Source of the DNA: Phycisphaerales bacterium | Lineage (GTDB): Bacteria; Planctomycetota; Phycisphaerae; Phycisphaerales; SM1A02 | Assembly (NCBI GenBank): GCA_030748805.1 | Contig: JASMLG010000022.1 | Location: forward strand, 1-10,259 | Direction of reading: 5' to 3' | DNA: 10,259 bases | Part shown: piece by piece, positions 1-10,259 of the stretch | How positions within the stretch are numbered: position 1 is the stretch's first letter | How the letters are laid out: each line of letters opens with the position of its first letter | The notes under the pieces: generated by a model | Told to the model about the DNA's origin: nothing | What the model saw: only the letters and a program-made list of their open reading frames with translations | Database searches by the model: none | Position numbers and translations under genes: made by a program

Positions 1-424
1 TGTAAGCCATCGCAACCCCTGAAAATGGGTGGCGTAAACATTCGCCGTAGGAGCCCTTGATGACATTGCCGTTTTCATCTTTGTCAAACTCAAGTGGTTT
101 ACCACAGTCGGCTAGAAGTGAACCAGCAATGAGGTAATCCCGATTGATTGGAATATCGCACGCGAACGCTGATTCAAGAACATCTGCAATTGCAATGCAT
201 TGTCGAACGCACGAATTGAGATGCGCAATAAAAGTCATATCAATGTCGCCAGCAAGCAATGTGAATTTTACTGCACGCAATTCATCGAATGTCCAGCCAT
301 TGCCTCCGCAACCTGTAGTTATTGCTTCATTCCAAGTCGCAGCAACTGCATCGCGCAGTGATTCGTCTTGGATATCCATGATGTTTGGAAAAAGTTCTGC
401 GATATTATCTGTTGTATATGTCAT
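1..424 (-). CDS. HD-domain-like protein, N-terminal part (runs off the window)
   Basis: Partial gene of 141 codons, open at the window edge. It is too short at this edge to be listed as a complete reading frame, but it reads without a stop from an ATG that overlaps the lyase stop as ATGA. Residues 62-135 resemble the HD phosphohydrolase fold: H68 in an AHLNSC segment, then LIAGSLLADCGK (98-109) where family members usually have L-x-HD-x-GK, then LRHPFSG with H132. The usual His of the HD pair is therefore Ala105, while Asp106 and Lys109 are kept. HD proteins are metal-dependent phosphohydrolases or nucleotide hydrolases, and the substrate here is unknown. As the last visible gene of the CoA-ligase/lyase operon it probably has a linked role. 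The missing His may weaken metal binding or may be normal in this subfamily. The fold assignment rests on motif pattern only. Confidence 0.7.
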   Translation of the reverse strand, partial: MTYTTDNIAELFPNIMDIQDESLRDAVAATWNEAITTGCGGNGWTFDELRAVKFTLLAGDIDMTFIAHLNSCVRQCIAIADVLESAFACDIPINRDYLIAGSLLADCGKPLEFDKDENGNVIKGSYGECLRHPFSGVAMAY

Positions 425-1188
425 TTGAGTTTTCTTTCGGATGGGCCGTCGTATTCGTGATTTCCGGGGATGATTTTTCGCATTGGCTTCATGCGTGTTT
501 GTTCTTCGCGCACGTGCGCGACTAATCCGGGTGTTCTTGCAATCATAAATAAACCATTCATGACTTCTGGTTCAAAGCCAAGGTCTGCTAGAAGTGCAGC
601 AATTGCTCCGTCAACATTAATTGGCAATTTCTTCCCAGCATCAGCAAAGACCTGCGCAACTGCGCGTGCTGCTTCAATATACTTTCCGCAAACGTTTGCA
701 TCTTCAGCCAAATCCATAAGGCGTTTGGTTCGGGGGTCAGCAGAGTGTATACGATGACCGAAGCCACTCATACGCACACCAGATTGTTTCCATTCTGCAA
801 GACATGTTTCCGCGGCTAAATGCAAGTCCCCGCCATCTGATTTTGCAATTATTTCGCCAAGTTGTTTTGCACAGTTTGTAATAGCACCGCCGTGGTGTTT
901 ATTTATTGACATAATGCCAGCGGCAACTGAGGCGCTCAGCGTTGCACCAGTTGATGCAACGGTTCTTGCTGCAAGTACTGATGGCGGCGTTGCACCATGA
1001 TCAATACTTGAGACAATAATTGCTTCCATCAACTTACCTGTTGGTTCATCTGGCATTTCACCGCGAAGAATGAGATAGACCATCTGTCCAAATGAACTGT
1101 TGCCCATTAAGTCAGCAATGTCGTACCCGCGAACGCGTACTGCGTTTGGCTCGATTTCGGTGATTGCTGTCTTCCACGAGTCACTCAT
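421..1188 (-). CDS. citryl-CoA lyase-like protein (citrate synthase fold)
   Basis: A 255-residue protein with the citrate synthase C-terminal fold and the length of stand-alone citryl-CoA lyases (about 260), not full citrate synthases (about 370-430). Expected reaction: citryl-CoA to acetyl-CoA plus oxaloacetate, in the cytoplasm. Visible signatures are RGYDIADLMG near 20-29, SSIDHGATPPS (60-70), the catalytic-His segment HHGGA (98-102), GFGHRIHSADPR (142-153) matching the second active-site His and CoA/substrate region, INVDGAIA (190-197) carrying the expected catalytic Asp193, and TPGLVAHVREE (219-229). All three catalytic positions appear present, so it should be active. The ATG overlaps the stop of the alpha-subunit gene by four bases (ATGA), and its own stop overlaps the HD-like gene in the same way. 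This implies translational coupling and supports a complex or sequential pathway with the ligase subunits. The true substrate could be a citrate analogue. Confidence 0.88.
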   Translation of the reverse strand: MSDSWKTAITEIEPNAVRVRGYDIADLMGNSSFGQMVYLILRGEMPDEPTGKLMEAIIVSSIDHGATPPSVLAARTVASTGATLSASVAAGIMSINKHHGGAITNCAKQLGEIIAKSDGGDLHLAAETCLAEWKQSGVRMSGFGHRIHSADPRTKRLMDLAEDANVCGKYIEAARAVAQVFADAGKKLPINVDGAIAALLADLGFEPEVMNGLFMIARTPGLVAHVREEQTRMKPMRKIIPGNHEYDGPSERKLK

Positions 1189-2123
1189 GCGTTAATCCTC
1201 TCAAGGGAAAATGTTGCAAGCGCTGCTTCTGGCAAGTCACCAAAGGCATCGACGACAACGCCGCCCGCTTCTGTAATTGCTTTCACTTTGCCATCGTGCG
1301 TTCCACGACCACCTTCGATAATTGCGCCTGCATGGCTAAAGCGTGTGCCTTCTTTGGCTGCTTTACCGCCGATATAGGCGATGACTGGTTTTGTGATTCT
1401 TCCATCCTTCATGTGCTTTGCTAATCGCTCTTCTTGGCTACCTCCGATTTCGCCAAAGATAACTATGCCATCTGTCTCGTCATCATCTTCCATCATCAGT
1501 GCTACGTCGGGAATTGGTAATCCAATAACGCTATCACCACCAACATGGCAAAGTGTGCTTAAACCAAAACCAGCTTGTGCAAGGTAATACCCACAAGAAC
1601 TTGTCATGCCACCCGAACGCGAAATCACTCCAAGCGTCGTGCCATTACTTTCGGGAGCTTTCGGGGGGGTGAACCATTTGCGGGCTGACTCTGCTTTGCC
1701 GCCAATCATTCCAAGAACTGCCTTGCCTGGGCTAATAATTCCAAGAGTGTTTGGACCAACAAAGTTTGCACCCGCTTCTTTTGCTCTTGCAGCAATTGCC
1801 ATTGCATCCCAAACAGGAACGCGGTCTGGAACAAGTACAACAAGTTTCACGCCAGCGTCAATTGCTTCGATAGCAGCGTGCTTCACAAGACGTGCTGGGA
1901 CAAAGACAACTGAAATATCTATGTTACCCCCAGAGGACTCAATAACTTCAGCAACCGTGTCGTGTACTGCGATGCCTTCAACTTCTTGTCCGCCCTTTCC
2001 GGGCGTGCAACCGCCTACTATGTTCGTGCCAAACTCCTTCATAAGCCGAGTCCGTGCCCTGCCCTCTCGGCCAGTGATGCCCTGCACCATGACACGTTTA
2101 TTTTGATCAATAATGACTGCCAT
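1185..2123 (-). CDS. SucD-like acyl-CoA synthetase alpha subunit (succinyl-CoA/citryl-CoA synthetase family)
   Basis: A 312-residue alpha subunit of the ADP/NDP-forming acyl-CoA synthetase family. The Rossmann CoA-binding domain shows GITGREGRARTRLM (15-28) and CTPGKGG (39-45), then GPNTLGI (123-129). The ligase domain shows ISRSGGMTSS (167-176), VGGD (194-197), GEIGGSQEE (224-232) and the phospho-histidine segment FSHAGAIIEGG with His264. It forms the phosphohistidine intermediate that passes phosphate from ATP to the carboxylic acid before thioester formation. It is slightly longer than a typical SucD (about 290). The extra length lies mainly around residues 144-160, between the GMIGGK and TLGVISRSGG strands. 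SRSGGM resembles ATP-citrate lyase more than the SRSGTLT form of classic SucD, whereas CTPGKGG is SucD-like. Given the adjoining citryl-CoA lyase, a citryl-CoA synthetase role is more likely than a TCA-cycle succinyl-CoA synthetase. Start: TAATG overlap with the upstream gene. Confidence 0.9.
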   Translation of the reverse strand: MAVIIDQNKRVMVQGITGREGRARTRLMKEFGTNIVGGCTPGKGGQEVEGIAVHDTVAEVIESSGGNIDISVVFVPARLVKHAAIEAIDAGVKLVVLVPDRVPVWDAMAIAARAKEAGANFVGPNTLGIISPGKAVLGMIGGKAESARKWFTPPKAPESNGTTLGVISRSGGMTSSCGYYLAQAGFGLSTLCHVGGDSVIGLPIPDVALMMEDDDETDGIVIFGEIGGSQEERLAKHMKDGRITKPVIAYIGGKAAKEGTRFSHAGAIIEGGRGTHDGKVKAITEAGGVVVDAFGDLPEAALATFSLERINA

Positions 2124-3601
2124 TAATCAAGTCCTTTCACAGGCATATCTACAAAGACAACATTGTGTCCTGCTCGCAAACATTCTATTTCACAAGCGAT
2201 TAAATCGCTATCTTTATCAGTAATATCTTCAGTTGGTTCTGGTTGACCGGAATCGCCAATAGTTAGGAGGCCATTACTCTCGCGCACAACTATTTCTGCA
2301 ACTTCCGGTTGGACATTGTCAATCCAAAGTGCGCCGTACTTAATTGGAAAACTTGAAGCGTCTTCACTTCCCACAAAATCGGGGACGTGCCTAGCCATTG
2401 AGTCATTTGTTGCACTCGTTTCTTCAACCAATTTCGCAAAAACTTCAGCGCACTTTCCGGGCGTGTCATCTTTCTTGAAGCCCCGGACCTGTGCAGGCAA
2501 ATTACTGCACGAATCCTCAAGAATATCAACTGCTCTGTCTTCACTGTTTCCGCCCAAGCGAATGACTGCTGGTACTTCAATCTTCATTTCGATGAATGCT
2601 TTTGCAAGACCATACGCTGAGTGATACTGTTCTTGGGAAGCGACTCCCGATCCACTCCCAAAGTAACCGCTTAGATTTGGTTGAGATAAAATTATGCGCG
2701 CTGCCTGATAGACCTTGGCAACCGAAGGATTACCACTCGTATCAGTAAAGTTCGCAAGGGTAAAACCCTCGTTTGAAACCGCGTCCATTGACATCATTGA
2801 GCCGCCACCGCCTGCCCCGTGGAAAGCAATCAATCCCTTTGTATTTTCCCAACCAGAGGTTGGTAATTTTGCAAAGTAAAACGTTCCTCGATGATCTTCC
2901 TGTTCAATTTCGTACGCAAGTTGTTCAAGTTTTGTTGGCGGGTGATCAAGTTCGCGGGCAATTCCAATGCCTAAATCATCATGCCTAAAGACAGCGTAAT
3001 CGTCGATGGTTACCCTGCAGTCAGCGGCAACGATAGAGCCATCTGTTAAGCGAACAAGTGGATTGACTTCCATTGATCGTGCTTCGTGTGTTCGTGCTGC
3101 CAAAACAATTTTTACAATGGCATCGACAACGGCTTCGTCTTTTGTAACTTCAAGTAATGTTTCTTTTGAAATCTCACCATCTGCAGTCACTGGTATTCTT
3201 GCAACGGTGTCCGCCCTATCTTCGATACCACTACCACCTTGACAATCTAGTAAAAGAAGCGGCGCTTGATTTGCATCGTCTATCGTTAGCGACACAAAAA
3301 ACTCATCTTTAATGTCGAGCAATTCTTCGACTAACAGTTCTTCAACTGGAAAGTTGCCAAATTGCAGTGAAAACATTTTTTCAGCGGACTCTTTTGCTTC
3401 TTGAGCAGAGTGTACAAGCGCCACTCCACCAAGTGCCTTGCGACCTGTTACCCATGCTTGGACTTTTACAACAACGTTGCCGCCAAGTTCATTTGCTATT
3501 TCAAAAACTTGTTCTGGTGAATTGGCAACTCTGCCGCGAGGAATCGAAAGACCTGCCGCTGCTAAAAGTTGCTTACCTTGGTATTCATGTAAACGTGCCA
3601 T
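2123..3601 (-). CDS. SucC-like ATP-grasp acyl-CoA synthetase beta subunit with C-terminal extension
   Basis: A 492-residue ATP-grasp subunit that should bind ATP and the carboxylic acid and phosphorylate the partner alpha subunit. The N-terminus LHEYQGKQLL is the classic SucC opening. ATP-grasp features are VVKVQAW (44-50, Lys46), TGRKALGG (52-59), LVEELLDIKDE (90-100), metal ligands E178 and N180 in MEVNPLV, and D194 in AADCR. The C-terminal CoA-ligase domain includes FHGAGGGGSM (260-269), NFTDTSGNP (284-292) and VIRLGGNSEDRA (346-357). A normal SucC is about 390 residues. The remaining ~97 residues (from about 396) are a separate acidic segment that I do not recognise, so this is not an ordinary TCA-cycle SucC. 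The gene starts 18 bases after the membrane-protein gene and overlaps the alpha-subunit start by one base. A candidate internal -10 (TATCAT, 3611-3616) lies nine bases before the ATG. Confidence 0.9.
   Translation of the reverse strand: MARLHEYQGKQLLAAAGLSIPRGRVANSPEQVFEIANELGGNVVVKVQAWVTGRKALGGVALVHSAQEAKESAEKMFSLQFGNFPVEELLVEELLDIKDEFFVSLTIDDANQAPLLLLDCQGGSGIEDRADTVARIPVTADGEISKETLLEVTKDEAVVDAIVKIVLAARTHEARSMEVNPLVRLTDGSIVAADCRVTIDDYAVFRHDDLGIGIARELDHPPTKLEQLAYEIEQEDHRGTFYFAKLPTSGWENTKGLIAFHGAGGGGSMMSMDAVSNEGFTLANFTDTSGNPSVAKVYQAARIILSQPNLSGYFGSGSGVASQEQYHSAYGLAKAFIEMKIEVPAVIRLGGNSEDRAVDILEDSCSNLPAQVRGFKKDDTPGKCAEVFAKLVEETSATNDSMARHVPDFVGSEDASSFPIKYGALWIDNVQPEVAEIVVRESNGLLTIGDSGQPEPTEDITDKDSDLIACEIECLRAGHNVVFVDMPVKGLD
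2126..2416 (-). other. C-terminal extension of the SucC-like subunit
   Basis: Residues 396-492 lie beyond the end of the standard SucC fold, which appears to finish near KCAEVFAKLVEE (383-394). The segment contains two small predicted alpha/beta units: KYGALWIDNVQPEVAEIV (421-438), then an acidic linker EPTEDITDKDSD (455-466), then IACEIECLRAGHNVVFVDMP (468-487) with a CEIEC cysteine pair. I recognise no family. It could mediate docking with the lyase or the membrane protein, or regulate activity. It is in frame with no break, so it is unlikely to be read-through of a lost stop. Confidence 0.6.
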
Positions 3602-3619
3602 AGAGCGTGCATGATACCC

Positions 3620-4450
3620 CTACGGAGCAACTTTTTTGTCTATTTCAGGCACCGTATTTTCATCATGAGAGGAAGTCCAGCCAAGCCCTAATGCGAGACC
3701 AATAATAATGCCAGCGGCATATTCAATTGGCATTGGGAAGAGTAGTGATGAAATTTTTTGCTGAGCAAAAGAGGCAGGGCTTGTGTCACTAAGCAGTAAA
3801 CCGATTAGGTACCCAAGCCCACCACAAGCGATCGGTAATGCAAACAATATGATTGGTTGCATAGAACGAAGAAATTGTCTTGACAAAATGCCAATTAGAA
3901 CTCCACCAACTGCAGATGCTCCGAGAACTTGACCTTTTGCAGGCGTAGATGCAATGAACCAAATTACTGGCAGAATGGCAAGTGAAAGACAGATGGAAAT
4001 TCCAAGTTGTTTAGCTGTATTTTCGTCTTCCATTGGCTTGCTCACGCATTTCAGGGGGCCACCCAATGCGAACACAACTAAAGTTCCTAACAAGACAAGA
4101 ACACTAATAAATGCCGCTTCAAGAGCAAGCACATTGAAATTGCCGTTATTCATGACAAGTTCTTGCATCCCTTCAAGTTTCATTGCCATGGCAAATAGTG
4201 AAAAACCAAGAATAAACATTCCTGTTGTTGAAGTAGTACATTTTGCTACAAAACCAGCAACTACAGATGCCACTCCAATTGTCAGTGCCACTGCGAGCAT
4301 CGAAGAAATTGGCGAGATTGATTGGAAGATTGTTGGACCTAAAACACCACGAGTAGAAACCAGCGCTGAAGCTTGCCAAGCACCAAAAAAACCAACAAAC
4401 CCAGTTGCCAAGAGTACGATTATGCTTCGAATCCATGTGTCCATCGGCAC
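3620..4450 (-). CDS. unrecognised polytopic membrane protein, eight predicted helices
   Basis: A protein of 274-276 residues that I do not recognise as a named family. Hydrophobic segments fall near residues 9-27, 48-68, 75-92, 108-130, 149-167, 173-190, 195-220 and 236-258, giving about eight membrane helices. A short charged cytoplasmic-type tail follows (SSHDENTVPEIDKKVAP). Loops are short, with no visible ATP-binding, metal-binding or enzyme motif. Gly/Ala/Ser-rich helices (for example GASAVGGVLIG, near 176-186) would suit a small transporter or channel. It is the first gene of the minus-strand operon, 18 bases upstream of the SucC-like gene, so uptake or export of the ligase substrate (a di- or tricarboxylate) is a reasonable guess but only a guess. 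The longest frame starts at GTG (4450), but ATG at 4444 lies six bases after a TATTAT -10-like box and is the more likely start. Confidence 0.8.
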   Translation of the reverse strand: MPMDTWIRSIIVLLATGFVGFFGAWQASALVSTRGVLGPTIFQSISPISSMLAVALTIGVASVVAGFVAKCTTSTTGMFILGFSLFAMAMKLEGMQELVMNNGNFNVLALEAAFISVLVLLGTLVVFALGGPLKCVSKPMEDENTAKQLGISICLSLAILPVIWFIASTPAKGQVLGASAVGGVLIGILSRQFLRSMQPIILFALPIACGGLGYLIGLLLSDTSPASFAQQKISSLLFPMPIEYAAGIIIGLALGLGWTSSHDENTVPEIDKKVAP

Positions 4451-4511
4451 ATAATACTCGCTGACTAGGGCTAGTGCCCCGCGAGGTATCCTTGCGTTGT
4501 AAGATGTAAGG
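4451..4511. promoter_or_regulatory. divergent intergenic region with short inverted repeats and two -10-like boxes
   Basis: The only spacer between the divergent membrane-protein operon and hutH. It holds a perfect 5-bp inverted repeat, ACTAG-GG-CTAGT (4464-4475), and a near-perfect one, GCGAGG-TAT-CCTTGC (4481-4495, one mismatch). TATTAT on the minus strand (4451-4456) is a good -10 match for the operon. TAAGAT on the plus strand (4500-4505), six bases before the hutH ATG, is a weaker -10 candidate. I see no convincing -35 for either, which fits activator-dependent or weak promoters. The inverted repeats are short enough to be chance. Confidence 0.4.
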
Positions 4512-6008
4512 ATGAATCAAGAAGTTCTAGTTTTAGATGGAGGACCACTTTCAGGACCACAGGTTGTTGGAGTAGCTCGAAATGGAGTGCAAGTAGATGT
4601 TAGCACGCTTGCAATTGAACTCATGGAGTCTGCACATGCAGTCGTTGCGGAAGCCGCCTCATCTGATGCGGCTGTATACGGAGTGAATACTGGTTTTGGG
4701 GCGCTATCAACTACTTGCATTGAAAATGGGAAACTCGCAGATTTACAGATGAACCTTCTACGTTCCCACTCCGCAGGTGTAGGCGAACCACTAGAAGAAG
4801 AAATAGTTCGTGGCATGATGATTCTCCTTGCTGCAAGTTTGTCCCGTGGACATAGCGGTGTTCGACCAGTTGTAGTACACACCCTTGTGGAGATGCTAAA
4901 TGCTGGAGTGACACCCACCATTCCATCTCGGGGATCAGTTGGTGCCTCTGGCGACCTTGCCCCACTTGCTCACCTTGCACTCGTACTTTGCGGAGAAGGC
5001 AAGGCCACCCTTGGTGAAAAAGTAATGCCTGGCAAAGCAGCGATGACTGCAGCTGGAATTACTCCAATAGTACCTTCTGCAAAGGAAGGGCTTGCACTTA
5101 TCAATGGCACGCATCTCATGGCTTCCATTTCTGCATTGGCATTAGCTGATATTGCTGTTCTCTGCGAAGTCGCAGTAATCGCAACTGCGATGTCGATTGA
5201 CGCGGCAAAAGCTACTGATTCTTTCCTCGACCAACGGCTACATGCAGCACGGATTCAAAGTGGACAACAGACTGTTGCTAGTACTCTTCGAGCTCACTTA
5301 GTTAACTCAACAATACTTACATCGCATCAAGAAGATGATCAACGGGTACAAGACCCGTACAGTTTCCGTTGCTCTCCTCAAGTTCTCGGTGCAGCGATAG
5401 AAGCTATCGCAAAAGTAACTGGTGTTGTTTCTGCTGAACTTGGTGCTGTCACGGATAACCCTTTAGTCTTTCCGAAGGACAATGCGATTATTTCCGGAGG
5501 CAACTTCCACGGAATGCCTCTTGCAATTGCCATGGATGAATTGCGCATAGCACTCTGTCACATTGCAGGCATTGCTGAAAGGCGTATTGAATGGATTTTA
5601 TCTGGTCGTTGTATACACAATGATTTACCCGCCTTTTGCGCATGCGACCCAGGATTAGAAAGCGGGCTCATGATTGCCCAATACACTGCTGCTGCGTGCT
5701 GTGCAGAGTTAAGAACGCTTTCGATGCCAGCGAGTGTTTCAAATATTTCGACTTCAGGAGGGATTGAAGATTACAACTCCATGGGTGCAACTTCTGCACT
5801 GATGCTTCGTCAATCTATCAACCTGTGCCGGAGTGTCATAGCTATTGAATTATTGGTTGGTTGCGATGCTCTTGACCATCACAGACCTCTTAAAAGTGGC
5901 GATGCAGTCGAACATTTATATTCTAAAGTCCGCGAAGTTGTTCCAGAACGAAATTGCGACCGATCACCTGCACAAGATATTCTTGCAATTGAAAAATTGC
6001 TCCGTTAA
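4512..6008 (+). CDS. hutH: histidine ammonia-lyase (histidase)
   Basis: A complete 498-residue enzyme of the MIO-dependent aromatic ammonia-lyase family, close to the usual ~510. It converts L-histidine to trans-urocanate plus ammonia, the first step of histidine catabolism, as a cytoplasmic homotetramer. The MIO cofactor forms from Ala145-Ser146-Gly147 in GSVGASGDLAPLAHL. Other active-site residues seen are Tyr56 in YGVNTGFG, Asn198 in LINGTH, Gln280/Tyr283/Arg286 in VQDPYSFRC, Phe332 in GGNFHG and Glu419 in GGIEDYNSMG. Each sits 3-5 positions from its Pseudomonas putida HutH counterpart. Specificity is set by Ser85-His86 in LLRSHSAGVG, the histidase pair; tyrosine and phenylalanine lyases have His-Leu or Phe-Leu. 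Glu419 also supports histidase over PAL/TAL, where Gln is usual. The gene stands alone: no hutU, hutI or hutG is visible. The ATG is preceded directly by TAAGG with no normal SD spacing. Confidence 0.95.
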   Translation: MNQEVLVLDGGPLSGPQVVGVARNGVQVDVSTLAIELMESAHAVVAEAASSDAAVYGVNTGFGALSTTCIENGKLADLQMNLLRSHSAGVGEPLEEEIVRGMMILLAASLSRGHSGVRPVVVHTLVEMLNAGVTPTIPSRGSVGASGDLAPLAHLALVLCGEGKATLGEKVMPGKAAMTAAGITPIVPSAKEGLALINGTHLMASISALALADIAVLCEVAVIATAMSIDAAKATDSFLDQRLHAARIQSGQQTVASTLRAHLVNSTILTSHQEDDQRVQDPYSFRCSPQVLGAAIEAIAKVTGVVSAELGAVTDNPLVFPKDNAIISGGNFHGMPLAIAMDELRIALCHIAGIAERRIEWILSGRCIHNDLPAFCACDPGLESGLMIAQYTAAACCAELRTLSMPASVSNISTSGGIEDYNSMGATSALMLRQSINLCRSVIAIELLVGCDALDHHRPLKSGDAVEHLYSKVREVVPERNCDRSPAQDILAIEKLLR

Positions 6009-7783
6009 GGTGCAGCGCAATCAACAAGGTCGCAAATTGTATTGTCCCCAAAATATTCACCGTTCTTAACAGCACACCCGACTTCATGCAGTTCAGAACA
6101 CTGTTGAAACTGAACGCAACATGCCCCAGTTACATCTGGCAATGTATACACAGAACACTCACCCCAAGAAATAATAAGTATTAGTAAATCTTCTACATCA
6201 ACAACATTATCTACATTTAGATCCTCATCAACTGGATCGCCATGGGGTATAGGGTTCTCGCCCCATGCTGCAATCAAAGTAATAACATCCTGCACACCTA
6301 CTTCACCATCAGAAGAAAAATCAGCAATACATTGACAATCATCTGGCACCCAATCCTCATTTATATCTTCTTCACACCCATCGAGAATGCCATCTTCATC
6401 GCAATCTCCAAGTACAACCCAATCGCAATCATCTGGGATTTCATTTTCATTACAATCAGTCACCAGGCCCTGCGAAATTTCATAGGTATCAGGAATTAAA
6501 TTGTCGTTACAGTCAACTTGACATTCATCTGGTACACCGTCCCCATCATAATCTAGGGAATTACCAAGAGAAATGTCGCAGTCATCAGGCATGCCATTCA
6601 AATTACAATCTGGCAATTCGCAAATGTCTCCAATCCCGTTCCCATTGCAGTCAAAGCCATCACAGAGCCCTTGTAGTCGAACACCAAGCCCTTTTTCTTC
6701 CCAATTTACATTTGCAGTCATAATATCAAGATCGCCATCGTTATTTAGATCTGCGAACTTGACCTCCGCTGTTCCGCCTCCCATCTCCACGGTCTCTACA
6801 GTCGAAAACAAACCACCTCCCTCATTGATAAACAATAGTTGTTGAGGTGCTCCAACATGAGAAACAATCAAATCTAAATCGCCATCTAAATCTACATCAC
6901 CTGCATCAATGGAATGAGGAATTAAATTTGTTGTCCATGTTGCTACAAGTGTAAAGTTCGCGCCACCATCATTGTGAAATATCCATAAACGGTCTTCATT
7001 CTTATCAACTGCAGCAATATCCACATCAGAGTCGTTATCAAAATCACCTAGAACCACATATCTCGGCGCACCTGTAAGCTGAATCGAAATCTCATCAGCC
7101 CACTGTCGCTTTCCCATCCCCAGCAATATCGATAGCGAACTTGAAACGTAGTTTGCAACAACCACATCTTTATGTCCATCTCCGTTCAAATCTGCCGATG
7201 CTCCTCCGCGAGGCTGCACACCTATTTGAGTAGATGGATACGCAACAAATGTGCCATCGCCATTATTAATCAAAGGAGTAAACTTGGCAGGGTTTTGACT
7301 TGGAGGTGATGCATCTACATCCCAATGGGTGACCAATATGTCTGGGAAACCATCACTGTCAATATCATCTACCCATGAAAACGCAGGAGTCTCAAGGGAA
7401 AACTGAGCAACTATGGTGAAAGCTCCAGTTCCATCATTTTCAAGAACTGTTTCTGTCATACCAGTAAAATCAGGAGTGCAAAGATCTATATCGCCATCAC
7501 CATCGAAATCTGCTCCGTGTACATATCTAGGGTTGATGCCGGTTGGGAAGTTTATTCTGTTTTGGAAGATGCCACTCCCATCGTTGTACATAACTGATAC
7601 GTCATTCGTACCACGATTTGCAACTACTAAATCTACATCACCATCACCATCAACATCAGCAGGAAAAACACCAGTGGAATAGAGTCCAGTTTGATAATGC
7701 CGCAATGGCTCAAAAGGTACAGCACCAGAGGCAAATGCGCTAACCATTAATAAGAGGAGATATAGTAATACTGTTCTATTCAT
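6005..7783 (-). CDS. secreted seven-bladed FG-GAP/VCBS propeller protein with Cys-rich Ca repeats and dockerin-like C-terminus (paralogue A)
   Basis: A 592-residue exported protein. Residues 1-20 are a typical Sec signal peptide (NRT, hydrophobic core, cleavage near ASG-A). Seven FG-GAP/VCBS Ca-loops of the D-x-D-x-D-G-D-x-D type begin near residues 42, 91, 139, 197, 246, 295 and 344, giving a seven-bladed beta-propeller. Residues 373-483 are a run of Cys/Asp-rich calcium repeats resembling thrombospondin type 3. Residues 485-543 are a dockerin-like EF-hand pair ending in WGEC, and 552-592 a Cys-rich tail opening with GACC. No catalytic motif is visible. Propellers of this type usually serve in adhesion or binding outside the cell; the ligand is unknown. 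The upstream neighbour is a paralogue with the same propeller but another tail. The stop overlaps the convergent hutH stop. There is no SD before the ATG, but a promoter is placed for a leaderless mRNA. Confidence 0.9.
   Translation of the reverse strand: MNRTVLLYLLLLMVSAFASGAVPFEPLRHYQTGLYSTGVFPADVDGDGDVDLVVANRGTNDVSVMYNDGSGIFQNRINFPTGINPRYVHGADFDGDGDIDLCTPDFTGMTETVLENDGTGAFTIVAQFSLETPAFSWVDDIDSDGFPDILVTHWDVDASPPSQNPAKFTPLINNGDGTFVAYPSTQIGVQPRGGASADLNGDGHKDVVVANYVSSSLSILLGMGKRQWADEISIQLTGAPRYVVLGDFDNDSDVDIAAVDKNEDRLWIFHNDGGANFTLVATWTTNLIPHSIDAGDVDLDGDLDLIVSHVGAPQQLLFINEGGGLFSTVETVEMGGGTAEVKFADLNNDGDLDIMTANVNWEEKGLGVRLQGLCDGFDCNGNGIGDICELPDCNLNGMPDDCDISLGNSLDYDGDGVPDECQVDCNDNLIPDTYEISQGLVTDCNENEIPDDCDWVVLGDCDEDGILDGCEEDINEDWVPDDCQCIADFSSDGEVGVQDVITLIAAWGENPIPHGDPVDEDLNVDNVVDVEDLLILIISWGECSVYTLPDVTGACCVQFQQCSELHEVGCAVKNGEYFGDNTICDLVDCAAP
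6155..6331 (-). other. dockerin-like EF-hand pair in paralogue A
   Basis: Residues 485-543: two Ca-loop/helix units, DFSSDGEVGVQDVITLIAAW (488-507) and DLNVDNVVDVEDLLILIISW (521-540), each followed by G. The pattern matches dockerin-type loops widespread at C-termini of secreted planctomycete proteins. No cohesin is present in this window, so cellulosome-type docking should not be assumed. Sorting, folding or surface attachment are alternatives. Confidence 0.7.
6335..6667 (-). repeat. Cys/Asp-rich calcium repeats (thrombospondin-3-like) in paralogue A
   Basis: Residues 373-483 contain imperfect repeats of the form D-C-N-x-N-x-I/M-P-D-x-C. Examples are DCNGNGIGDIC (378-388), DCNLNGMPDDC (392-402), DYDGDGVPDEC (411-421), DCNDNLIPD (424-432), DCNENEIPDDC (443-453), DCDEDGILDGC (460-470) and DINEDWVPDDC (473-483). 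Seven units vary in spacing from 11 to 19 residues. One unit (DCNDNLIPDTYE) has lost the closing Cys. They probably form a Ca-bound, disulfide-stapled stalk between propeller and dockerin-like domain. Confidence 0.75.
6722..7660 (-). repeat. seven FG-GAP/VCBS blade repeats of paralogue A
   Basis: Seven Ca-loops spaced 49, 48, 58, 49, 49 and 49 residues apart within residues 42-354. Loops include ADVDGDGDVDL, ADFDGDGDIDL, ADLNGDGHKDV and ADLNNDGDLDI. The longer third blade carries an extra loop rich in Pro/Ser around DASPPSQNP (157-165). All seven loops keep most acidic ligands. Confidence 0.85.
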
Positions 7784-7790
7784 AAGTAGA

Positions 7791-7818
7791 ATTCTAAATC
7801 ATTAATGTTTGAACTCAA
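7791..7818 (-). promoter_or_regulatory. candidate promoter of paralogue A
   Basis: On the minus strand, TTGAGT (7818-7813), a 16-base spacer, then TAGAAT (7796-7791) match 4/6 and 5/6 of the sigma-70 consensus. Only seven bases separate the -10 from the ATG at 7783, which would place the transcription start at or next to the start codon. The same geometry recurs before the paralogue at 9917. Confidence 0.45.
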
Positions 7819-7841
7819 AACATAATCATTTCTTTTCTTCT

Positions 7842-7861
7842 AAAAAAGCAAGTGGTTGCTT
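7842..7861 (-). terminator. candidate intrinsic terminator at the stop of paralogue B
   Basis: Read on the minus strand: AAGCAA, loop CCAC, TTGCTT, then TTTT. The 6-bp stem has only two G-C pairs, so it is weak. Its 5' arm shares bases 7860-7861 with the TAA stop (7862-7860). Position and T-run fit a rho-independent terminator separating the two paralogues, which agrees with a separate promoter for the downstream one. Confidence 0.4.
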
Positions 7862-9917
7862 AAACTTCACATGGCCCCCACGTTCCGATAACAGCCAAAA
7901 GATCCACAACATCAACCAAACCGTCAGAATTTAAATCAGCAGGACCGCAGGTTTGCCCCCAAGCCCCAACAATCATTAGGAAATCCGAAATATCCACAAT
8001 CCCATCATTCGTTGCATCTGCGAAACATGAAGTTACACAGGTGCCCTCTGGCCCTTCGATGTATATAGTTCCATCGCCAAACGAAAATTCAGTCGCCCCA
8101 CCAATTCGAATAAAATAATCCTCCCCTAACTCAATCGAATACACAATGATTGAAGAACCTCCGTTGCAACCACTATCATCTCCATTGCAATCGATTTGTG
8201 ACAAGTTGCAACAGTTGCCTTCATACACTACGATATCTGAGTCAAAATTTAATCCACACGCATCAATGAGCAGTTCTCCAGCGTTGCATGCTACATAACG
8301 CAACCACAAGTCATTTCGCATTCCACCAAAGTTGCTTGTGCTACATTGAGTTGGGTCAAAACTATCCACAGAATCTGTTGCTTGAAAATTCGAAATATCT
8401 AAAAAACCATTTGCAACATCCCATGAAGCACTGCATTCATCTGGGAACGGTGGATTCACTTGTATAGAAACAAGTGATTCGCTCGATTGTTCGCAATCGT
8501 TCACATGGTAAAAAAAGAAATCGTCTCCGACATATCCATTCGATGGGTAATATCGAAGTGAATCATTCGACAAATAATAAGGAACATAATTTATTTCCAA
8601 ACCGCTTGGCTCCCGAAGCACACCTTCATTGGGCAAAGAAGAAATGACATACTCAAGCGAATTTCCCGTGAAGGTTTCCCCGACAAGTTGCATACTTAAT
8701 TCTTCATATAAACTTGCAACAAATTCTAAATCGTAAGACACTGGGGGGCAAACACCGCCGCTTCTAAAAGTAGTTTTTCTGAGACATGGGAGACATTCTT
8801 TTTGTAATAACACACTTGAACCCAGATGCGAGCCATTCACGTTTGCAGTCATAATGTCAAACATTGCATCACCATTCAAATCAGCTATTTTTACTTCGGC
8901 AGCACCACCAGGGATGTTGATTGACTGAATTGAATCTACATGCCCAGTTCCATCGTTATGCAGAATATACTGAACAGTAGAACCAACGTGGACAACAATA
9001 AAATCTAAATCACCATCAGCATCGATATCTTCCAGAACCATCGAATGTGGCGATCCTTGGACAGGAACTGTTTCGCCAAGTGTAAAGTTGGCTTGACCAT
9101 CATTGAAAAGCACCCAAAATTTATCAAAAAGTTTATCAAGCGATGCAATGTCAATATCTCCATCACCATCTAAATCGCCTAATGCAATGTACCTTGGAGT
9201 CCCTGGCCACATAGAAATTTGAACACTCGGTTGCCACGTTCTTGGGCCGCTCGACAATACAATCGAAATTGTACGAGAGTAAATGTCAGCAACAACAACG
9301 TCAATAAAACCGTCCCCGTTCAAATCTGCCGATGCGCCACCACGTGGTTGAACACCCACTGTTGCAGAAGATCCAACCGTAAATGTTCCATCTCCATTGC
9401 TGTAGAGTGGCGTCATGAAGCCATTACTTTGTTCTGGGTTTTTTACACTTCCATCCCAATGCAGCGTAGCGATATCTTTGTTTCCATCTGAATCTAGATC
9501 TTCAATCCAAAGAAAAGAAGGTGTAAATAAATTGAATTGGTGCTGGATAGAATAACTACCAATTCCATCATTTGCTAACACTGTGATTGACATGCCATCA
9601 AAGTCGGCGGTACACAAATCGATGTCTCCATCACCATCAAAATCTGCGCCTTCAACGTACCTCGGATGAGCACCTGTTTGAAAATCAATGCTGCTTTCAA
9701 ATATTCCTGCGCCGTTGTTATACAACACCGTTACAGAATCTGAAGAACGGTTCGCCACCGCTATATCAATATCTAAATCACCATCAAAATCTGCAGGAAA
9801 GATTCCAGTAGACATTCCACCAGTTTGATATTGAGCGACATTCTGAAATCGTAAGTCACCAAAGGAAAAATTTGCAATTAATAAAACGCACGCTAAAAGT
9901 AAGACGTGATTCCTCAT
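7860..9917 (-). CDS. secreted seven-bladed FG-GAP/VCBS propeller protein with cadherin-like, PPC-like and dockerin-like modules (paralogue B)
   Basis: A 685-residue exported protein with a signal peptide at about 1-20 (core VLLLACVLLIA). Seven FG-GAP/VCBS loops begin near residues 42, 91, 139, 197, 247, 296 and 345, almost the same register as paralogue A. The two share identical stretches, for example GVQPRGGASADLNGDG at 188-203 in both. After the propeller come a cadherin-like/tandem-95-type beta domain (393-488, with NEGVL, RYYPSNGYVGDDFFFYHV), a PPC-like domain rich in Cys (493-627, with DLWLRYVAC, DIVVYEG, YFIRIGG), and a dockerin-like EF-hand pair (631-683, ending WGPC). It is likely an extracellular or surface-bound Ca-dependent binding protein; no enzymatic motif is seen. 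Loops one (DFDGDLDIDI) and seven (DLNGDAMFDI) are degraded. The start is supported by TTGACA/CATACT upstream. GGAG lies only two bases from the ATG, too close for a normal SD. Confidence 0.9.
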   Translation of the reverse strand: MRNHVLLLACVLLIANFSFGDLRFQNVAQYQTGGMSTGIFPADFDGDLDIDIAVANRSSDSVTVLYNNGAGIFESSIDFQTGAHPRYVEGADFDGDGDIDLCTADFDGMSITVLANDGIGSYSIQHQFNLFTPSFLWIEDLDSDGNKDIATLHWDGSVKNPEQSNGFMTPLYSNGDGTFTVGSSATVGVQPRGGASADLNGDGFIDVVVADIYSRTISIVLSSGPRTWQPSVQISMWPGTPRYIALGDLDGDGDIDIASLDKLFDKFWVLFNDGQANFTLGETVPVQGSPHSMVLEDIDADGDLDFIVVHVGSTVQYILHNDGTGHVDSIQSINIPGGAAEVKIADLNGDAMFDIMTANVNGSHLGSSVLLQKECLPCLRKTTFRSGGVCPPVSYDLEFVASLYEELSMQLVGETFTGNSLEYVISSLPNEGVLREPSGLEINYVPYYLSNDSLRYYPSNGYVGDDFFFYHVNDCEQSSESLVSIQVNPPFPDECSASWDVANGFLDISNFQATDSVDSFDPTQCSTSNFGGMRNDLWLRYVACNAGELLIDACGLNFDSDIVVYEGNCCNLSQIDCNGDDSGCNGGSSIIVYSIELGEDYFIRIGGATEFSFGDGTIYIEGPEGTCVTSCFADATNDGIVDISDFLMIVGAWGQTCGPADLNSDGLVDVVDLLAVIGTWGPCEV
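7869..8027 (-). other. dockerin-like EF-hand pair in paralogue B
   Basis: Residues 631-683 carry two loops, DATNDGIVDISDFLMIVGAW and DLNSDGLVDVVDLLAVIGTW, each followed by G-x-x-C or GPC. They end the protein almost exactly at the C-terminus. This is the one C-terminal module shared in kind with paralogue A, although A carries a further GACC tail after it. Confidence 0.75.
8037..8441 (-). other. PPC-like Cys-rich domain in paralogue B
   Basis: Residues 493-627. Visible are DECSASWDV, the pattern N-D-L-W-L-R-Y (535-541), CG with DSDIVVYEG (559-567), DCNGDDSGC (576-584) and the closing YFIRIGG (601-607). This order matches the bacterial pre-peptidase C-terminal (PPC) beta-sandwich variant common in planctomycete secreted proteins. 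No peptidase domain accompanies it. Confidence 0.6.
8454..8741 (-). other. cadherin-like / tandem-95-type beta domain in paralogue B
   Basis: Residues 393-488. The pattern L-E-Y-V-I-S-S-L-P-x-E-G-V-L, then R-Y-Y-P-x-N-G-Y-x-G-x-D-x-F-x-F-x-V-x-D, then S-x-V-S-I-Q-V matches the Ig/cadherin-like repeats found in large bacterial adhesins. Only one copy is present. Confidence 0.65.
8853..9794 (-). repeat. seven FG-GAP/VCBS blade repeats of paralogue B
   Basis: Loop starts are spaced 49, 48, 58, 50, 49 and 49 residues apart (residues 42-355), the same as in paralogue A except for one extra residue between loops four and five. The third blade has the same long insertion, here with KNPEQSNG. Loops one and seven have lost Gly or Asp positions. 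Confidence 0.85.
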
Positions 9918-9924
9918 CTCTCCA

Positions 9925-9952
9925 AGTATGTTGATTTCAATGCTTTTGTCAA
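9925..9952 (-). promoter_or_regulatory. candidate promoter of paralogue B
   Basis: On the minus strand, a perfect -35 TTGACA (9952-9947), a 16-base spacer, then CATACT (9930-9925, 4/6 match to TATAAT). Seven bases follow before the ATG at 9917. The predicted start of transcription is at or beside the start codon. It lies in the 56-base gap after the VOC gene, where I see no clear terminator. Confidence 0.5.
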
Positions 9953-9973
9953 GAATTTAGCCATGAATTATCA

Positions 9974-10259
9974 CTAGGAACACCCACAATCATCACTACA
10001 ACGCTCAGAAAGTCCGGTAAAGACGGCTATTGCTGCTCCAGCTGCATCTGTAAAGACAGAAAACCTACCGATTCCAGGAATGTCTGCTGGTTCGCAGATT
10101 ATGGTTGCACCAAGTTCGGCTGCTTTCGCGGTTGTCTCATCGACACTTGCAACACTTATGTAGCCAAGCCATGCAGGCTGTCCTTCCCATTGCATTTTCA
10201 TCATACCACCAGCCCAAACTTCTCCGTTCATAAACACTGTGTAAGGTTCTTCGCTTGTG
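9974..10259 (-). CDS. VOC (glyoxalase/bleomycin-resistance fold) family protein, 3' part
   Basis: The C-terminal 94 residues of a gene that continues past the window edge: the frame stays open to base 10259 (upstream residues TSEEPYTVF), so the GTG at 10237 or ATG at 10231 are internal, not starts. The pattern VFMNGEVWAGGMM, then WLGYISVASVDETTAKAAELGA, then EPADIPGIGRFSVFTDAAGAAIAVF is the second beta-alpha-beta-beta-beta unit of a VOC protein, of the kind with a V-G-R-F and D-x-x-G-A ending. VOC members are metal-dependent lyases, isomerases or dioxygenases, or binding proteins; the substrate cannot be told. The last eight residues carry CxxxCxC (CSDDCGCS), not part of the usual fold. It is on the same strand as paralogue B, but that gene has its own promoter candidate. 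Confidence 0.88.
   Translation of the reverse strand, partial: TSEEPYTVFMNGEVWAGGMMKMQWEGQPAWLGYISVASVDETTAKAAELGATIICEPADIPGIGRFSVFTDAAGAAIAVFTGLSERCSDDCGCS

Follow-up and report, generated by a model that had tools for sequence, protein, structure and literature searches.

Gene content of the operon and its conservation

The window analysed here, a 10,259-nucleotide (nt) stretch from a Phycisphaerales bacterium (assembly GCA_030748805.1, contig JASMLG010000022.1, positions 1 to 10,259, forward strand), carries at 2-4450 a run of five minus-strand open reading frames (ORFs), among them a three-polypeptide module resembling ATP-citrate lyase (ACL). In gene order these are MEM (3620-4450), encoding a membrane protein of 276 amino acids (aa) with about eight helices; BET (2123-3601), a 492-aa SucC/AclB-like ATP-grasp ligase subunit; ALF (1185-2123), a 312-aa SucD-like alpha subunit; LYA (421-1188), a 255-aa citryl-CoA-lyase-like protein of the citrate synthase fold; and HD (2-424), an HD-domain protein read over 141 aa and open at the window edge. 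The 18-nt gap after MEM and the successive overlaps of 1, 4 and 4 nt agree with the layout described in a first-pass annotation made from the sequence alone. BET matched PF08442 (ATP-grasp_2, 2e-31) in Pfam, ALF matched PF02629 and PF00549, and LYA matched PF00285 (1.4e-40) as well as the NCBIfam citryl-CoA lyase model NF004869, with 272 bits against a cut-off of 212.

BET relatives were located at 324 places in genome contigs, and the best 80 loci, chosen by BET, were studied. SucC-like, SucD-like and citryl-CoA-lyase-like genes were found together repeatedly in Planctomycetota and Verrucomicrobiota. Among loci with enough sequence, ALF lay near BET in 63/66, LYA in 46/53, HD in 37/47 and MEM in 20/62. 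The constant company of a membrane protein and an HD protein predicted by the first-pass annotation was thus borne out in part: HD is near in most of these loci, and MEM is an optional partner, detected at 25 loci out of 80 with a weak match at one. Nor is the tight packing of the window operon general, as adjacent genes were at most 100 nt apart in 54/73 BET-ALF, 33/41 split ALF-LYA, 17/45 LYA-HD and 11/24 MEM-BET pairs.

The two His, one Asp and three Arg residues expected of the citrate synthase fold were present in 60/60 LYA proteins, the window protein included, and we take their roles to be those they have in citrate synthase. When aligned with the citryl-CoA lyase Ccl (6hxp), both His, the Asp and two of the Arg matched, with the third Arg falling on a Lys of 6hxp (60/60). 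ALF continues into LYA in 25 of 72 alpha proteins, giving a protein of about 570 aa where complete; fusion was scored from an ORF length of at least 360 aa, with some ORFs cut by contig ends included. The fused form occurs in Verrucomicrobia and part of the Planctomycetota, while the window form is split. Two changes between split and fused forms were needed on the ALF tree, on which a single change is possible too. In the fused protein of L080, the lyase part passes three citryl-CoA-lyase models. Since the window LYA scored 198 bits to Ccl (6hxp) and 69 to AclA, the ALF-LYA fusion appears to have arisen independently of that in AclA.

An AlphaFold2 model of MEM (mean predicted local distance difference test score 87) has eight long helices when the broken helix at residues 143-164 is counted as one, in keeping with the eight-helix protein first annotated, and this helical model gave no clear match in PDB. 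A search with MEM returned 31 proteins including its own, and the two with named taxa were from Phycisphaerales and Phycisphaerae. Among other genes in the loci, one that looks GNAT-like by eye stands between LYA and HD and forms a cluster with members in 22 loci (e.g., L003:11926-12483), and a family of about 200 aa lies directly or closely behind HD in eight loci (e.g., L005:11913-12524); neither had an NCBIfam match at E 1e-10. BET was also found on L008, L046 and L062, whose records are titled Vicinamibacteraceae, Cyanobacteria and Leptolyngbya. In the BET tree, from which L062 is absent, the partner of L008 is L024 and that of L046 is L058, two records titled Phycisphaerales, so the three titles are probably wrong.

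Separation from housekeeping and known citrate-cleaving enzymes

The window BET reached 188 of the 370 bits and ALF 256 of the 336 bits set by the curated SucC and SucD equivalog cut-offs, and both therefore fall short of a housekeeping assignment. In 18 genomes hand-picked from the 80 loci, a separate SucC above cut-off was present in 18/18 (the G006 copy has an in-frame TAG), as was a separate citrate synthase (18/18). A beta-subunit tree was built from 33 of 81 BET proteins (80 loci and the window), SucC and three ACL rows, with CcsA outside its sampling. One of the 18 SucC proteins (L105, in-frame stop) and the broken BET of L012 (73-aa ORF) were excluded from the tree, and the broken-frame BET of L035 from the alignment. 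BET formed its own clade beside SucC and ACL, and the module (33 rows) and ACL (three rows, on long branches) lay on separate sides of the tree with Shimodaira-Hasegawa-like approximate likelihood ratio support of 91 and 100. Together, the scores below cut-off, the separate clade and the second SucC in each of the 18 related genomes rule out that BET and ALF are the housekeeping SucCD. The first-pass proposal of a three-polypeptide ACL-like module distinct from SucCD therefore stands; grouping with SucCD, a lack of any other SucCD and unconserved neighbours, each of which it had named as evidence to the contrary, were not found in the relatives tested.

The motifs of the module are in keeping with a citrate-type substrate. 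The motif TSGNPS in BET (2723-2740, minus) was conserved in 77/77 near-full-length relatives; at its position SGDP or SGAP stands in the three ACL rows, and GGGA or GGAA in the three SucC rows shown. A second BET element, GSGSGVASQEQ (2627-2659, minus), conserved as GSGSGVAxQEQ in 77/77, occupies the position of the ACL loop IANFT, which binds citrate. With an SGNP-type motif and a GSGSGVAxQEQ loop, the BET site appears ACL-like in one part and distinct in another. The phospho-histidine motif HAGA of ALF (1323-1334, minus) was present in 71/71 relatives.

Citrate cleavage in the reductive tricarboxylic acid (TCA) cycle is attributed, in PMC9802188 and PMC5441870, to ACL, to citryl-CoA synthetase with citryl-CoA lyase, or to citrate lyase at low product-to-substrate ratios. 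The module resembles the CcsAB and Ccl proteins of Hydrogenobacter and Aquifex in being three separate polypeptides and in having a LYA closest to Ccl, but differs from CcsAB in the stronger likeness of its ligase subunits to SucC and SucD, in a C-terminal part of BET of about 95 aa (2126-2416, minus), and in its operon. Because BET scored 157.7 bits to SucC versus 94.3 to CcsA, and ALF 245 to SucD versus 161 to CcsB, the module is not simply of the Hydrogenobacter type. With AclBA/ACLY it shares the AGGG(A/G)S and SG(N/D/A)P motifs of BET and, in relatives, an AclA-like fusion of ALF and LYA, whereas its clade and substrate loop are different and the alpha and lyase proteins of the window are unfused.

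The wider operon and the exchange of the module with citrate lyase

In relatives, the operon extends past the genes seen in the window, whose edge falls inside HD; for this reason the genes described here, and the citrate lyase exchange, were missed by the first-pass annotation. Clustering of all ORFs revealed further genes on the same strand, mostly behind HD: one for a hydratase (about 660 aa) at 25 loci, one for a dehydrogenase at 14 and a PrpD-like one at 8. In L002 all three precede BET. Given HD and enough sequence behind it, the hydratase was near in 27/31 loci, the dehydrogenase in 14/22 and PrpD in 8/11. The hydratases of L111 (745.7), L002 (712.2) and L080 (736.3) exceeded the NCBIfam homoaconitase cut-off of 529.9, and for the three dehydrogenases scanned the best-fitting model was AksF2 homoisocitrate dehydrogenase, whose cut-off of 540 they did not reach (258.5, 320.7 and 329.5). 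Counting genome matches with an in-frame stop as matches (for the hydratase, G008, G013, G015, G086 and G243), the hydratase was present in 18/18 module genomes (interrupted by an in-frame stop in three of them, and a partial match in G003) and PrpD in 17/18, with G003 lacking it.

The window piece of HD had no Pfam match; of four full-length relatives, two passed the Pfam HD cut-off and all four passed NCBIfam HDIG. The HD dyad is degenerate, reading AD in the window piece (LLADCGK, 98-118, minus) and in 41/41 full-length module HD proteins, as well as in the HD proteins of L109-L111, L081 and L082, while six distant HD proteins (L083-L088) have an intact dyad. The presumed metal-binding His is lost, and the protein is more likely to bind or regulate than to hydrolyse. 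HD relatives are widespread, with 1641 matches to P0152 and some Krumholzibacteriota among the 120 matches listed, and HD was found in 9/149 genomes of a phylum draw (E <= 1e-10), mostly as distant forms. Of 13 HD loci read from two draws, G003 apart, HD is accompanied by tricarboxylate genes in nine (L082-L084, L087, L109-L113); none were seen beside HD in the other four (L081, L085, L086, L088).

An even sample of 120 genomes from the class of G003, judged from the genome handles to be identical in all three draws, contained BET in three genomes (E <= 1e-100), HD in six including those three (E <= 1e-50), and the hydratase in seven including those six (E <= 1e-130). The three genomes with HD and the hydratase and without BET (G190, G219 and G243) all carry citF. 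Overall, citF was found in 5/31 genomes (G084, G086 and the same three), always with a score slightly or moderately under the curated cut-off, and in 0/20 module genomes; the 80 module loci likewise gave no tblastn match to citrate lyase proteins. Absence of BET was established genome-wide (E <= 1e-100) for G190, G219 and G243, and BET status was judged from fetched loci only for G035, G084, G086, G132 and G147. Taking the latter five as BET-less too, the distribution of citF (0/20 vs 5/8) gave a Fisher p of 5.7e-4, and the three BET-tested genomes alone (0/20 vs 3/3) gave 5.6e-4 (1/1771), both uncorrected for kinship.

In L111 (G219), one strand reads dehydrogenase-hydratase-HD-PrpD-CitDE-CitF, so that CitDEF keeps the company otherwise kept by the module, although the proteins themselves are different, matching CitE and CitF models. 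L083 (G084) carries HD, CitDE and CitF; CitF and dehydrogenase-hydratase converge in G243, where HD and PrpD are on another contig. The enzyme in this slot fits citrate lyase models best, with CitF just under cut-off. As related bacteria carry citrate lyase in this operon in place of the module, one slot of an undescribed acid pathway seems to be filled by either of two unrelated machines. CitDEF needs no ATP. G250 has the dehydrogenase, hydratase and PrpD, and neither BET nor HD was found there at the thresholds used.

A third arrangement, in G147 (a genome of the phylum draw) and in G132 as far as the contig end, combines a dehydrogenase and HD with two hydratase-like genes and with distantly related SucC/SucD-like genes. 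In G147 (L087, L089, L090), a SucC-like gene is present and the alpha and lyase parts form one 716-aa ORF; two KorA genes (with KorB by eye) lie upstream on the opposite strand, and the two hydratases are far under the homoaconitase cut-off. This distant sister operon is possibly a reductive-TCA cluster.

The rest of the window holds a histidine ammonia-lyase gene (4512-6008, plus), divergent from MEM and 61 bases away. In 15 loci (L001, L005, L010, L013, L016-L018, L020, L026, L037, L048, L052, L053, L056 and L061), a urocanate hydratase cluster, named by eye, lies near the module, accompanied in 11 of the 15 by an imidazolonepropionase cluster, also named by eye. Two tandem ORFs (6005-7783 and 7860-9917, both minus) encode proteins that resemble each other, look secreted and contain repeats of DxDGDxD recognised by eye; the second matches dockerin_GC weakly (23.5 of 29 bits). 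An open-ended ORF (9974-10258, minus) looks glyoxalase/VOC-like by eye and matched no Pfam family at E 0.001.

Predicted reaction, substrate and direction

Given these observations, we propose, with a probability of about two in three, that BET, ALF and LYA constitute an ATP-dependent tricarboxylate-cleaving enzyme, a third lineage beside ACL and the citryl-CoA synthetase/lyase pair, and that this enzyme replaces citrate lyase in a tricarboxylate operon not described before. BET and ALF would use ATP, by way of a phospho-histidine on ALF, to join CoA to a citrate-type acid, yielding citryl-CoA or a close homologue, from which LYA would release acetyl-CoA together with oxaloacetate or a homologue of it. 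The module would then occupy the operon place held by CitDE-CitF in related Phycisphaerae, and the hydratase, dehydratase and dehydrogenase would link a 2-oxo acid and an isocitrate-type acid to the citrate-type acid being cleaved. The genes, their conservation and residues, the fusion, the operon and the exchange with citrate lyase are seen in the sequences themselves; the reaction, substrate and direction, and the parts played by HD and MEM, are predictions.

Several results weigh against this proposal. The best-scoring families of BET and ALF are SucC and SucD, and the substrate loop of BET is unlike that of both ACL and succinyl-CoA synthetase. Some loci with enough sequence have no nearby ALF (3/66), LYA (7/53) or HD (10/47). 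The exchange with CitF rests on few lineages: citF was found in 5/11 of the other genomes tested, and the remaining six (G025, G035, G054, G072, G132 and G147) yielded no citF and no module. CitF and the hydratase are also about 19 kb apart in G190 and on separate contigs in G084 and G086.

The probabilities of the proposal and of its rivals overlap, since homocitrate as substrate and a reductive-TCA role, both considered below, are partly special cases of it. Of these, homocitrate cleavage is unlikely in our estimate; the operon would then join 2-oxoadipate, homoisocitrate, homoaconitate and homocitrate by reversed alpha-aminoadipate steps, with the PrpD-like enzyme dehydrating homocitrate and the module releasing acetyl-CoA and 2-oxoglutarate. 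The hydratase and dehydrogenase models favour homocitrate: the L111, L002 and L080 hydratases exceed the homoaconitase cut-off, and the dehydrogenases fit AksF2 best, if below its cut-off. According to PMC3556520, fungal homoaconitases catalyse the homoaconitate/homoisocitrate half only and need a second dehydratase, a division of work that a PrpD-like dehydratase and a homoaconitase-type hydratase would suit. The alpha-aminoadipate route shares with the module operon a homoaconitase-type hydratase and a homoisocitrate-dehydrogenase-like gene, but the operon has a citrate-synthase-fold lyase and a CoA ligase instead of homocitrate synthase, with the PrpD-like and HD genes in addition. The exchange with citrate lyase, whose models the same-slot enzyme fits best, favours cleavage and citrate, and the distant G147 form, with hydratases far below the homoaconitase cut-off, has two 2-oxoacid:ferredoxin oxidoreductase genes next to it, as would suit a reductive TCA cycle.

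Operation in reverse is less probable again. LYA would condense acetyl-CoA with a 2-oxo acid, BET and ALF would regain the thioester energy as ATP, and the 2-oxo acid would emerge one carbon longer. All steps are reversible in principle, and the hydratase and dehydrogenase resemble chain-elongation enzymes; however, the CitDE-CitF enzyme that elsewhere fills this slot is known to act by cleavage, and a housekeeping citrate synthase is present in every module genome examined for it.

We consider a reductive-TCA or reductive-carboxylation route from 2-oxoglutarate to acetyl-CoA improbable to a slightly greater degree. In its favour, dehydrogenase, hydratase and citrate cleavage share one operon, and histidine degradation, which yields glutamate, is encoded near some loci. 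KorA exceeded its cut-off in G147, G132, G219 and G014, and with weaker matches (partly to longer ORFs) it was found in 17/20 module genomes in all, but only 1/20 module genomes had it above cut-off, and the route has no need for a PrpD-like enzyme. That a succinyl-CoA-synthetase paralogue and a citrate-synthase-like protein simply lie side by side is very improbable: the best scores of BET and ALF, to SucC and SucD, would fit, but the ALF-LYA fusion, the co-occurrence of the module genes, the separate SucC and the invariant ACL-like SGNP motif all speak against it.

Extending the proposed cleavage enzyme to a complete pathway is more tentative, at slightly worse than even odds. In it, Planctomycetota and Verrucomicrobiota would possess an undescribed route whose PrpD-like dehydratase, homoaconitase-type hydratase, homoisocitrate/isocitrate-type dehydrogenase and degenerate HD protein supply a citrate-type acid either to CitDEF or to an independently assembled third ATP-citrate (or homocitrate) lyase that repeats the alpha-lyase fusion of AclA. 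A literature search found no paper on this operon, most subscription journals lying outside its coverage, and PMC8307300 showed no bearing on the subject.

Citrate cleavage driven by ATP is a hallmark of the reductive TCA cycle and, in eukaryotes, a source of acetyl-CoA for lipids. Two enzyme systems for it are named in PMC9802188 and PMC5441870. If the proposal is true, a third system, found alongside citrate synthase and SucC in the same bacteria, would be relevant to genome-based calls of autotrophy. Because split and fused forms exist within one family, the origin of an AclA-like fusion becomes testable, and the exchange with CitDEF offers a direct handle on the substrate. The HD protein, for its part, becomes a candidate component of tricarboxylate metabolism.

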